Position numbers and translations under genes: made by a program. A DNA stretch of 64,000 bases from the NCBI GenBank assembly GCA_016180845.1, contig JACPAK010000006.1:1-64000 (forward strand). Direction: 5' to 3'. The first letter of the stretch is position 1; every line of letters starts with the position of its first letter. The notes beneath the pieces are model-generated. The model was not told the DNA's origin. It saw only the letters and a program-made list of their open reading frames with translations, and ran no database searches. This document shows positions 6,306 to 33,838 of the stretch, piece by piece. This DNA is from Deltaproteobacteria bacterium. Its GTDB lineage: Bacteria > UBA10199 > JACPAL01.

Positions 6306-7894
6306 GAGGAACGGATTGTCGTCAAAGAACTGGGTTGAAAAATAGAGATCGCCTCTTCGATCACTCCCCCGGTGGTAATCACCTCGGAAGGAGCGGCTGC
6401 TTCAATGACCAACTTCAAGGGGCGACCAAAATACTGTTCGAGCTGTTCCAGAAGCTGCGCCTTGCGCGCTGCCTCATTCAACATCTCCATCGAGAGAGAT
6501 TTTTCTGGAAATTTGATCATCACCTGATCTTTGGAAAAATCAGACGATAACGCCTGCGCCAGGATAGAGGCGATCTGCGGTTTTTTCGACTGGAGTTCTC
6601 CAAGAAATCCTTGCCAGTCTTTGGGATCACTTGAGGAAGCCTTTTCATTCGAGATCGGCGGGTCCTGGCTCGGGTTCCGCCCACCCGTGCTCACCCGTTG
6701 CGCGCGGGCGGGCGCCCGACCCGAGCCACCCGCCGCATCACTATCAAAATCAGCAGCACCTTTTCCCTCTATCATCTGAATCAACTTCTCAATCGACTGC
6801 AAATCCTCATGATGACAGAGCCTCAAGAGGAGGACATCCAGAACGATTTGCGGCGTTGCCGATCGTAAAAGATCGGAGAGACCTTTTTGAAGCATTCGAA
6901 ACAATTGATCCAAGAGATTCTCAGAAACGGATTGGGAGAGCTCTTTTAACTTTTTGATCTCATCAGAGGGGAGATCAAAGAGGGCCGGATCCTCATGAAT
7001 CCGAACAATCAAGAGATGACGAAGATATTCCAAAAGTTCTCTCGCCAATCTCTTGGGATCGATACCAGCCTCTGAGGCTGCCTTGAGTCCTTGCAGGAGT
7101 TCGGCCGCCTCTCGATTCAAAATCGATCGGAGAATAGAGATCACAAACCGACGGGGGGAAGCACCTAAAATCTCCTCAATCCCCTGAACCTTCACCTGAT
7201 TTTTAAAATACGAGGCGACCTGATCGAGCAGCGTGATCGCATCGCGAAGACCCCCCGAGGCCTCTCGCGCGATTTCGAAGAGGGCTGCCTCCTCGACCTC
7301 GATCGACTCCTTTTCTGAAATCCTCTTCAGATGACCAACGATCAGATTCAGTGTCATCGGTCTCAAATCGAATCGAAGACAGCGTGAGATGATCGTGATC
7401 GGGACCTTCTGCGGCTCCGTCGTTGCAAAGATAAAGAGGGCATGCGGAGGGGGTTCTTCCAATGTCTTCAAGAGGGCATTGAAGGCAGCGGTCGAGAGCA
7501 TATGGACTTCGTCGATGATGTAAATCTTGTAGCGTCCACCCGGGGCAAGATAACGAATCTTTTCCCGGATCTCGCGAACATCCTCCACAGAGGTATTTGA
7601 GGCACCGTCAATCTCCATGACCGCCATCGAGCGTCCTTCCGTGATATCCACGCAGGAAGGGCACGAACCACATGGCTCAGTCGTCGGCTGGTCTGTCTTC
7701 TGACAATTCAACGCCTTCGCCAGGATCCTGGCCAATGACGTCTTCCCGATCCCACGAGGTCCCGTAAAAAGGTAGGCATGATGGATCCGCCCCTCCGTCA
7801 GGATATTCTTGAGGATTTTGACAGTGACTTCCTGACCGACGACATCCTCAAAGGTTTGAGGGCGGTATTTGAGGGCCAGGACACGAGAAGACAT
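6302..7894 (-). CDS. dnaX: DNA polymerase III subunit gamma/tau
   Basis: DnaX is the clamp-loader ATPase. It carries Walker A GPRGIGKTSLARILAK near residues 45-60, the zinc-binding CGSCPSC with upstream Cys, the Walker B IIDEVHML near 125, and the SRC sensor motif in ISRCLRFDL near 168. At 530 residues it is in the normal range. A flexible linker about residues 389-420 is encoded by a strongly palindromic GC-rich stretch (6667-6727). No A-rich frameshift site for a short gamma form was noticed. It starts divergently from the DUF2141 gene and heads an operon with recR. Confidence 0.96.
   Translation of the reverse strand: MSSRVLALKYRPQTFEDVVGQEVTVKILKNILTEGRIHHAYLFTGPRGIGKTSLARILAKALNCQKTDQPTTEPCGSCPSCVDITEGRSMAVMEIDGASNTSVEDVREIREKIRYLAPGGRYKIYIIDEVHMLSTAAFNALLKTLEEPPPHALFIFATTEPQKVPITIISRCLRFDLRPMTLNLIVGHLKRISEKESIEVEEAALFEIAREASGGLRDAITLLDQVASYFKNQVKVQGIEEILGASPRRFVISILRSILNREAAELLQGLKAASEAGIDPKRLARELLEYLRHLLIVRIHEDPALFDLPSDEIKKLKELSQSVSENLLDQLFRMLQKGLSDLLRSATPQIVLDVLLLRLCHHEDLQSIEKLIQMIEGKGAADFDSDAAGGSGRAPARAQRVSTGGRNPSQDPPISNEKASSSDPKDWQGFLGELQSKKPQIASILAQALSSDFSKDQVMIKFPEKSLSMEMLNEAARKAQLLEQLEQYFGRPLKLVIEAAAPSEVITTGGVIEEAISIFQPSSLTTIRSS
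6667..6727. repeat. GC-rich palindrome inside the dnaX linker
   Basis: GGCTCGGG (6667-6674) and CCCGAGCC (6720-6727) are perfect inverted arms. Inner segments are also largely complementary (CGCCCACCCG against CGGGCGGGCG). The 61-bp element is in frame and encodes a Gly/Arg/Ala-rich part of the tau linker. It is much more GC-rich than the surrounding gene and may be a palindromic repeat that inserted in a tolerant region. Confidence 0.55.
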
Positions 7895-17839: not shown

Positions 17840-17937
17840 AAGGGAGCCATCTAATAATCAGAAAAAATTTATTCATTGGGCTGAGACTTACGCAGACATT
17901 ATTTAAGAAGGCATAGCAAAGAATCTATGCAAGAGGT

Positions 17938-17966
17938 TTGACCACTCGATCTTTTATACATATGAA
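17938..17966 (+). promoter_or_regulatory. Sigma-70 type promoter for the intron-bearing tRNA-Arg
   Basis: TTGACC (17938-17943), a 17-bp spacer and TATGAA (17961-17966) lie 15 bases before the tRNA 5' end, the expected distance for a stable-RNA promoter. Confidence 0.6.
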
Positions 17967-17981
17967 TTAGGCAATACAAAT

Positions 17982-18291
17982 GGGCCCGTAGCTCAGGGGA
18001 TAGAGCACCTGCCTTCAATAGAGGAGCCTTGGTCTGGGAAACAAACCAACCAAGTGGATGGCGCTATATGCGGGGAAGCCCTGATAGCCTTCTAGTACCC
18101 AATCGATGGGTAAAAACCTGGGAGGATTGGGTGATCCGCAGGGAAGTCCTTTTGGACCCCTCAGAGACCACACGCGTCACACCTGTAATGGTGAAGATAT
18201 GGTCCAGCCTACAATCCGCAAAAGCGGTGCTTGGGAAACCAAGTGTGGGATGCTAAGCAGGGGGTCGCAGGTCCGAATCCTGCCGGGCCCA
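17982..18291 (+). tRNA. tRNA-Arg(UCU) interrupted by a group I intron
   Basis: The 5' exon (17982-18015) has acceptor GGGCCCG, D-arm GCTC/GAGC and anticodon stem CCTGC up to T34. The 3' exon (18253-18291) starts with C35-T36, has the matching stem GCAGG, T-stem GCAGG/CCTGC, and acceptor CGGGCCC with discriminator A. Joined, the anticodon loop is CTTCTAA, anticodon UCU. The T-loop reads TCCGAAT, with C where position 55 is almost always U. CCA is not encoded. The next gene's ATG lies two bases after the discriminator. Confidence 0.92.
18016..18252 (+). ncRNA. Group I self-splicing intron (IC3-like) in tRNA-Arg(UCU), 237 nt, no ORF
   Basis: The intron follows T34 and ends in G, as group I introns require. 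P1 is visible: exon CCTT pairs with intron GAGG (18021-18024), placing a U.G wobble at the 5' splice site. The conserved R element TCAGAGACCACACG (18161-18174) and S element GAAGATATGGTCC (18192-18204) are near the consensus, and GACCA/TGGTC forms P7. A Q-like GATCCGCAGGGAAG is at 18132-18145. The small size, lack of an endonuclease gene and position after the wobble base resemble subgroup IC3 introns of cyanobacterial tRNA-Leu and proteobacterial tRNA-Arg/tRNA-Ile. Confidence 0.9.
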
Positions 18292-18293
18292 CA

Positions 18294-19661
18294 ATGAAGC
18301 GAATAACGGTCGTAGGCATTATTATTCTTTGTGCCACCTCCCTTCTTGCCGGCGAGGGTGTCCCCCCTGTTATCCATCTCGAAGAACAGATAGAACAGGC
18401 CTCTCGGGATCTCGAACCGATTTTGAGTGAATTGGAAGTCATCGATCTCTACCCTGATCAGGAACAAGAGGGACGTCTCCAGACAATCAAAACGGAGATC
18501 GGATCGTTTCAGAGTCGCTATTCTCCTCTCCTCTCCCGATTCCAAAAGGGGGCTCAGGAGAAACTTCTCCAGGATCTGAAAGAAGGGGCACGCAAGGAAC
18601 GCCTCGCCTCAGCCAAACCGATCACGGAATCAGCTCTTCTCGAAATGAAATTAAAAGTTGCCGAAGCACGCCTTCGCGAAAAAAGGATCGGGGAAGAGCC
18701 GATCGATCGAATGAGAAAACAGGTCTGGGGATGGGAAAAAGTCTTAAGCCAAGTCGATCGGACGATCCAGGAAGGTTATCTCCTCGCCTTTCTCTCCGAA
18801 TTGGCGAAAACGAGGGCTCGAGAGGCGTTGCAAAAACTGGAGCAGGAGACCCCTCAAATCCTGGAGGAAAAGAGACAAAAAGAAGAGGCGCTTCAATTCC
18901 TCCTTCGCGAGGCGATCGATCCGGATCTCAAATCCTTGAAAACCGCCCTCTTCAAGGAGCAACTCTTCCAGCTCGAAAATCGGCCTAAGGCTTTAAGACG
19001 TGAGGCCCAGATGGCGAAGCTGACGGAAGAACTTTCCTCCCCCTCTCAAAAAAGAAAAAAGCTCTACGAAGTTGCCCAGAGGGAAAAAAATCTCCTGGAG
19101 ATCCTCACAAAAGAAAAGGAGCTGCTTTCCACAAGAAAAAGGAATTACGAAACACTGCAGACAAAGGTCAAGTCGGAGGCAGAATTAACACCACAGAACC
19201 CCTCCAATGGATTAAAGATCGGGATGAGTCTCGAATTCCCCCCTGAGATGCAGGAAAAAATAACCGCTGCTGAAACTCTGCTCGCGCTCGTGACAGGGGA
19301 GGAGCAGCGACTCGATCAGGGCCTTCAGAAACAGAGGGAATTAGTGGAGCTCGTTGAAGAGAGACTTCAGGAAAAGAGACTCTCCCCTGTCGGAGAGGTT
19401 GTCAATCAAGCGATACAAAAGTTGAAAGAAGTTTATCGAAAAATCATTCAGGCAATCCAAACGGTCTTTAGATTGGTAAACTCCTGGATCCCGAAAGATG
19501 ATAATTCGCGACCAAGACCGGAGCGTTTGGTCCCGCCGAAGGGGAGTCTTGGATCTGATTTCGTCATCCCATTGATAAAAACAGACCCCGCATCGATCTT
19601 CGCCGCGAGTCGTTCTGCCTTTTCGAGATCCCTCGTCCAGAGACTCGCACCGAGACCATAG
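18294..19661 (+). CDS. Exported coiled-coil protein of unknown function
   Basis: A 455-residue protein. The signal peptide is residues 1-18 (MKRITVVGIIILCATSLLAG). The mature region is almost entirely charged heptad-like helix (Glu, Lys, Gln, Leu) to about residue 385, reminiscent of the periplasmic coiled coils of mechanosensitive-channel-like proteins, but no channel domain is present. I chose ATG 18294; the frame upstream lies in the tRNA. The last 71 codons run antisense into the 3' end of the aldehyde dehydrogenase and lose coiled-coil character, so the natural stop may have been lost near 19490. Confidence 0.72.
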   Translation: MKRITVVGIIILCATSLLAGEGVPPVIHLEEQIEQASRDLEPILSELEVIDLYPDQEQEGRLQTIKTEIGSFQSRYSPLLSRFQKGAQEKLLQDLKEGARKERLASAKPITESALLEMKLKVAEARLREKRIGEEPIDRMRKQVWGWEKVLSQVDRTIQEGYLLAFLSELAKTRAREALQKLEQETPQILEEKRQKEEALQFLLREAIDPDLKSLKTALFKEQLFQLENRPKALRREAQMAKLTEELSSPSQKRKKLYEVAQREKNLLEILTKEKELLSTRKRNYETLQTKVKSEAELTPQNPSNGLKIGMSLEFPPEMQEKITAAETLLALVTGEEQRLDQGLQKQRELVELVEERLQEKRLSPVGEVVNQAIQKLKEVYRKIIQAIQTVFRLVNSWIPKDDNSRPRPERLVPPKGSLGSDFVIPLIKTDPASIFAASRSAFSRSLVQRLAPRP

Positions 19662-33603: not shown

Positions 33604-33652
33604 CGCGCCCGGAGAGATTCGAACTCCCGACCCTCTGGTTCGAAGCCAGATG
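33604..33652 (-). pseudogene. Partial tRNA-Arg(UCG) copy (49-bp 3' portion)
   Basis: These 49 bases are identical to 33765-33813 and contain the anticodon arm, variable loop, T-arm and 3' acceptor strand of tRNA-Arg(UCG). The 5' half is missing and replaced by hairpin-rich DNA, so it cannot fold as a tRNA. Confidence 0.85.
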
Positions 33653-33764: not shown

Positions 33765-33838
33765 CGCGCCCGGAGAGATTCGAACTCCCGACCCTCTGGT
33801 TCGAAGCCAGATGCTCTAATCCACTGAGCTACGGGCGC
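33765..33838 (-). tRNA. tRNA-Arg(UCG)
   Basis: Acceptor GCGCCCG/CGGGCGC pair, discriminator G. Anticodon stem TCTGG/CCAGA with loop CTTCGAA gives UCG. The T-loop is TTCGAAT. CCA is not encoded. Its 3' 49 bases are duplicated at 33604-33652. Confidence 0.96.

Follow-up and report, generated by a model that had tools for sequence, protein, structure and literature searches.

A predicted group I intron splits tRNA-Arg(UCU) after the wobble base in a UBA10199 bacterium, with related introns in other bacteria and in viral contigs

The window analysed here, the whole stretch of 64,000 nucleotides taken from contig JACPAK010000006.1 (assembly GCA_016180845.1) of a Deltaproteobacteria bacterium of the phylum UBA10199, carries at 17982-18291 a tRNA-Arg(UCU) gene that is confirmed, as far as sequence can tell, to be cut after U34 by a predicted group I intron, and the parts of this gene are collected in Table 1. 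By direct reading, full pairing between the two tRNA halves is reached only once 18016-18252 are taken out, and the exons joined at U34|C35 give a complete tRNA with the UCU anticodon, a class I variable loop and all stems paired (ARAGORN score 121), the predicted spliced junction being CCUUCUAAG. Exact junctions were obtained by trying each U^...G pair with ARAGORN, a search that itself demanded a U before the intron and a G at its end, so that the test of the U.G pair and of the terminal G rests on the perfect tRNA and on the conserved GAG; the terminal G and the U34.G pair in P1 are common to all ten UCU introns compared. The original prediction had placed an insertion of 237 bases after the wobble base of tRNA-Arg(UCU), ending in G and with U.G at the 5' splice site, and each of these points is borne out, now with exact coordinates and a perfect joined tRNA. 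The split gene was undetected by default ARAGORN, and the intron-permitting mode shifts the junction by one base and reports Ser(GCU), an identity rejected as a sliding artefact since the long variable arm is absent, and opposed also by a separate tRNA-Ser(GCU) in the genome.

Table 1. Parts of the split tRNA-Arg(UCU) gene and predicted helices of its intron (window coordinates).
Feature	Position	Strand	Basis or remark
tRNA-Arg(UCU) 5' exon, nt 1-34	17982..18015	+	acceptor 5' strand, D arm, anticodon stem 5' strand, C32 U33 U34
Group I intron (predicted), 237 nt, without endonuclease ORF, terminal G at 18252	18016..18252	+	RF00028 match, structure, homologues
P1: exon CUU 18013-18015 with internal guide GAG 18024-18026	18013..18026	+	GAG invariant in ten UCU introns
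P1 alternative: CCUU/GAGG	18012-18015/18021-18024	+	possible in window copy only
P2: CUUGGU/ACCAAG	18028..18054	+	sequence; compensatory in G016
P3, pseudoknot helix: UGGCGC 18059-18064 with GCGUCA 18174-18179	18059..18179	+	60/60 cells paired
P4: UGCGG 18069-18073 with CCGCA 18136-18140	18069..18140	+	50/50 cells paired
P7, guanosine-binding helix: ACCA 18167-18170 with UGGU 18200-18203	18167..18203	+	U-A to C-G double change
P8, within P7: CACC 18180-18183 with GGUG 18190-18193		+	A-U to G-C change
P9: CCUACA 18208-18213 with UGUGGG 18244-18249	18208..18249	+	sequence, conserved in G016
tRNA-Arg(UCU) 3' exon	18253..18291	+	C35 U36 A37 A38 ... discriminator A; CCA not encoded

The only Rfam match within 17900-18400 was Intron_gpI (RF00028), which covered the full model length at 38.9 bits (E = 1.6e-8); this lies below the gathering score of 50 bits, so that a default Rfam scan overlooks the intron, and the covariance search that had been proposed to check the prediction thus returned the expected family at a sub-gathering score. 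The intron folds with a z of -3.3, and an independent assembly, from a different family of the class, has an orthologue inserted at exactly this site, with 84% identity over 228 nt. The group I assignment with its P7 held up across the ten UCU introns, in which the core helices P3, P4, P7 and P8 are paired, with shuffle statistics that ignore kinship among the introns. The strands of P3, set by position from conserved neighbours, pair in every cell, with at most four different pair types at a position, and none of 5000 shuffles was as good; those of P4 were found by motif, which favours pairing there, and 2 of 5000 shuffles equalled them. Compensatory change across the ten homologues is accordingly strong in P3 and P4, as judged from the aligned sequences, whereas P7 (40/40 cells, 120 of 5000 shuffles as good) and P8 (40/40, 476 of 5000) vary little, show one double change each and add little evidence because both are too conserved. 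A GAG stands 5' of P2 in all ten introns, which indicates a conserved P1 of 3 bp, C32-U33-U34/G-A-G; the U.G pair proposed originally stands, and the proposed CCUU/GAGG register, which is specific to this copy, is to be corrected slightly. P9 encloses a GAAA-capped hairpin (18230-18243), and P10, between exon CUA and the 3 nt preceding GAG, forms all its pairs in six of the ten introns and two of three in the window copy, without shuffle support because the exon is invariant.

The 43 tRNA matches of the genome, which is 98.3% complete in 12 contigs, include Arg ACG, UCG, CCG and CCU (intact) and no intact UCU tRNA, and a pattern search that tolerated 2 mismatches found no intact UCU loop in the genome; a second intact UCU tRNA, the finding that the original prediction had named as speaking against it, was thus not encountered at this completeness. 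The AGA codon was used 40 times among 5270 codons of ten window genes, and since AGA is used and no intact UCU tRNA was found, splicing appears necessary, within the 98.3% completeness of the assembly. The genome matches also yielded no tRNA-Ile(GAU) or tRNA-Ala(UGC), which were presumably lost together with an rRNA operon, and an intact UCU copy could possibly sit in an assembly gap. An intact tRNA-Asn(GUU) was likewise not found among the 43 matches, and the only tRNA-Asn(GUU) detected (L001, C1:498738-499037, minus strand) carries a 295-nt group I intron (Intron_gpI, 73 bits) after U35. The 5' part of this intron resembles the start and end of an ORF, HNH-type as assigned by eye, in the counterpart from G003 of the same order, and from these remnants the tRNA-Asn(GUU) intron appears to have shed its endonuclease through internal deletion.

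Matches to RF00028 were observed in 24 of the 46 phylum genomes. Among 388 sampled genomes, almost all of them 90% complete or more, 18 of the 31 that belong to the phylum have a match, versus 41 of the 357 others (Fisher p = 7e-9). The tRNA insertion sites recovered within the phylum are tRNA-Asn(GUU) after U35, tRNA-Lys(CUU) after U33, tRNA-Leu(UAA) after U33 and tRNA-Arg(UCU) after U34, and flanking sequence places many further matches in rRNA and some in tmRNA. As a control, the same junction method applied outside the phylum recovers the known Leu(UAA) 34/35 (L176, L192) and Arg(CCU) 36/37 sites, together with Asn(GUU), Tyr(GUA) and three Arg(UCU) cases. A Thr identity for several relatives' introns was rejected, as it came from equal-scoring alternative junctions of tRNA-Asn(GUU), which were read as Asn because of the G discriminator and the loop. 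Among the separate observations, a tRNA-Tyr(GUA) of a genome outside the phylum (L169) bears a group I intron after U35; group I introns of phylum relatives lie near the 3' end of 16S rRNA (L156, L161 and L162, about E. coli 1495 by eye), and others in 23S rRNA and in tmRNA (L066, L159).

With a sequence model built from the window and G016 introns, UCU introns were detected in 8 of the 46 phylum genomes, so that the search among relatives that had been suggested with the prediction added seven genomes with an intron at the same site, namely G016, G019, G029, G011, G015, G021 and G018, the last lying across two contigs and counted without an exact junction. Outside the phylum they occur in at least six of about 357 genomes (G162, G249 and G377, with G365, G255 and G271 from a wider sequence model), and the UCU introns range in size from 216 to 674 nt. 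Most other phylum genomes have intact tRNA-Arg(UCU) loops, including five of the same order (G001-G005), of which G001 belongs to the same family as the window genome; for the other intron-bearing phylum genomes, the pattern search listed no exact intact UCU copy. The extra length of the introns in G011, G015 and G021 is accounted for by PDDEXK_5 ORFs (E 1e-37 to 5e-27), which match PF11645 and have as best solved relative 2OST (E = 1.5e-5, 28 bits), the structure of I-Ssp6803I from the Synechocystis tRNA-fMet intron. In G029 (337 nt) only a decayed endonuclease C-terminus, RVKTPKNNQKK, is left; the window and G016 introns have no endonuclease ORF, and no PDDEXK_5 homologue was found elsewhere in the genome of the window. 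Endonuclease-bearing, decayed, endonuclease-free and empty sites together suggest the pattern of a homing cycle.

A pattern taken from the conserved 3' core revealed six IMG/VR contigs with introns: L307, L308 and L309 have theirs in tRNA-Arg(UCU), L306, L310 and L311 have group I introns in tRNA-Ile(UAU), and in all six the gene is interrupted after U34. The L307 and L309 introns are apparently identical and L308 is distinct, and all three encode HNH_3 endonucleases, not PDDEXK. The L308 record holds terminase, portal and tape-measure genes (PHROGs), that of L307 holds a phage-type DNA polymerase, UvsX and helicases, and a PF03237 terminase search of the viral records gave no match. A protein scan for PDDEXK_5 exposed 18 viral loci, of which 13 lie within 80 bp of an intact tRNA-Arg(UCU); in one locus (L339) the gene lies inside a 633-nt tRNA-Arg(UCU) intron. 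In two isolated phages, Acinetobacter phage Herod and Synechococcus phage Sf-FR1, the gene stands just downstream of an intact tRNA-Arg(UCU). This location suggests that tRNA-Arg(UCU) is the cleavage target of the PDDEXK_5 endonuclease.

In the intron tree, whose alignments were trimmed around the endonucleases, the UCU introns form one group (support 100/94), within which the introns of two phage tRNA-Ile(UAU) genes (L310 and L311) are nested; since the alignments are trimmed and the introns short, the deep branches are tentative. The closest partner of the window intron is the G016 copy, and the two are joined next by copies from outside the phylum; the other phylum UCU copies cluster with viral ones at lower support, and G016 and G021, members of one family, carry intron copies from different subclades. 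The G016/G021 split and the outside-phylum grouping of the window copy favour horizontal movement of the UCU introns, and the reading we prefer, at a probability of roughly 0.9, is that the window intron is an endonuclease-free member of a lineage of group I introns that is specific for this site in tRNA-Arg(UCU) and moves horizontally, with splicing and homing predicted from sequence. Vertical descent from an ancestral tRNA-Arg(UCU) intron followed by many losses would also explain the shared position and the single intron clade in the phylum, and is considered improbable in view of the empty sites in family and order relatives, the different subclades of G016 and G021, a window copy nearer to outside-phylum copies than to most of its own phylum, the intron-borne endonucleases and the viral copies.

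An intron that has degenerated and no longer splices, left in a dead tRNA gene while another tRNA decodes AGA, is very improbable: the core helices are all intact and the exons give a perfect tRNA, no other UCU tRNA was found although AGA codons are used, and the other intron-bearing phylum genomes likewise list no exact intact copy, against which stand the sub-gathering Rfam score, the imperfect P10 of the window copy and the lack of an endonuclease homologue in the search of the genome. The idea that no intron exists and that a chance or chimeric insert separates the tRNA halves has nothing in its favour beyond the origin of the contig in an assembled genome of 12 contigs and can be dismissed, since the orthologue at the same site in an independent assembly refutes it and the covariance match and covariation oppose it.

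Under the preferred reading of a mobile UCU intron lineage, the transcript would fold into a group I ribozyme, with catalysis presumed from the fold; a guanosine bound in P7 would attack the 5' splice site, where U34 is kept in place by the U.G pair of P1, U34 once released would in turn attack behind the terminal G, and the joined exons would yield a normal tRNA reading AGA. The lineage may enter empty tRNA-Arg(UCU) genes through homing driven by the endonuclease and through horizontal transfer, for which phages are one plausible vehicle, and the window copy, having no endonuclease, is probably immobile now and would be kept because an essential tRNA depends on its splicing. A wider proposition, on which belief and doubt are about evenly balanced, is that bacterial phyla and phages share a circulating, undescribed lineage of introns specific to the tRNA-Arg(UCU) anticodon loop, in which phage tRNA-Arg(UCU) genes would carry the intron or a free-standing neighbouring intron endonuclease, phages would exchange the intron with bacterial tRNA genes, and the intron would sometimes jump to look-alike loops, such as that of phage tRNA-Ile(UAU).

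Several known systems resemble the split gene in part. The cyanobacterial and plastid tRNA-Leu(UAA) intron (U34|A35) is likewise a small group I intron after a wobble U, but has another host tRNA and falls on the Asn/Lys side of the tree, not in the UCU clade. The tRNA-Arg(CCU) intron likewise has an arginine tRNA of the AGR box as host, and one copy of it, L202, is the branch closest to the base of the group with the UCU clade, whereas it is inserted after U36 instead of U34, in another isoacceptor that is intact in the genome of the window; the window insertion at Arg(UCU) 34/35 thus matches neither known site. The Synechocystis tRNA-fMet intron with I-Ssp6803I is also a tRNA group I intron with a PD-(D/E)XK homing endonuclease, as in the relatives' copies, but differs in its tRNA, in its weak similarity (28 bits to 2OST) and in the window copy having no ORF. 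The free-standing phage endonucleases beside tRNA-Arg(UCU) in Herod, Sf-FR1 and viral contigs differ in that the tRNA is uninterrupted, whereas the window has an intron without endonuclease.

The hosts of group I introns named in the literature searched are tRNA-Leu(UAA), fMet and Ile2(CAU), with Arg(CCU) mentioned, and tRNA group I introns with unspecified hosts are described from CPR genomes (PMC8172020). The cyanobacterial Arg, Gly and Lys 'group I introns' reported in PMC5733544 were considered as precedent and rejected, as they apparently have lengths of tens of nt (49 nt in one case), which leaves no room for a group I core. The literature searched, which included few of the subscription journals, yielded no description of a group I intron in tRNA-Arg(UCU). 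The original prediction had called this host not standard, which holds for the searchable literature and not for the biology, where UCU is a recurrent host in 8 of 46 phylum genomes, at least six outside and viruses. The group I tRNA intron is a known kind; what sets this case apart is the host, the site, the phylum-wide load and the phage connection, a wider pattern for which no description was found, and the few host tRNAs and sites listed so far for bacterial tRNA introns gain one more of each. Genes of this sort escape tRNA searches at default settings and fall below Rfam thresholds, which makes genomes seem to lack essential tRNAs. The phage link is testable, as viral contigs hold tRNA-Arg(UCU) and tRNA-Ile(UAU) introns, in contrast with a 2014 review according to which every phage intron seen by then lay in a protein-coding gene although phages have many tRNA genes (PMC3984707), and a single site with intact, decayed and absent endonuclease offers a bacterial tRNA in which to follow the homing life cycle.

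Two minor features were observed elsewhere in the window. The 3' part of tRNA-Arg(UCG) (33765-33838, minus strand) recurs as an exact copy of 49 nt at 33604-33652, 161 bp away, and this copy looks like an attachment site or a partial tandem duplication. An in-frame GC-rich palindrome stands in dnaX at about 6650-6739 on the minus strand (codons about 386-415); this stretch alone gave tblastn matches to roughly twelve further loci of the genome and to several of G003, and it resembles a repetitive palindromic element inside genes.
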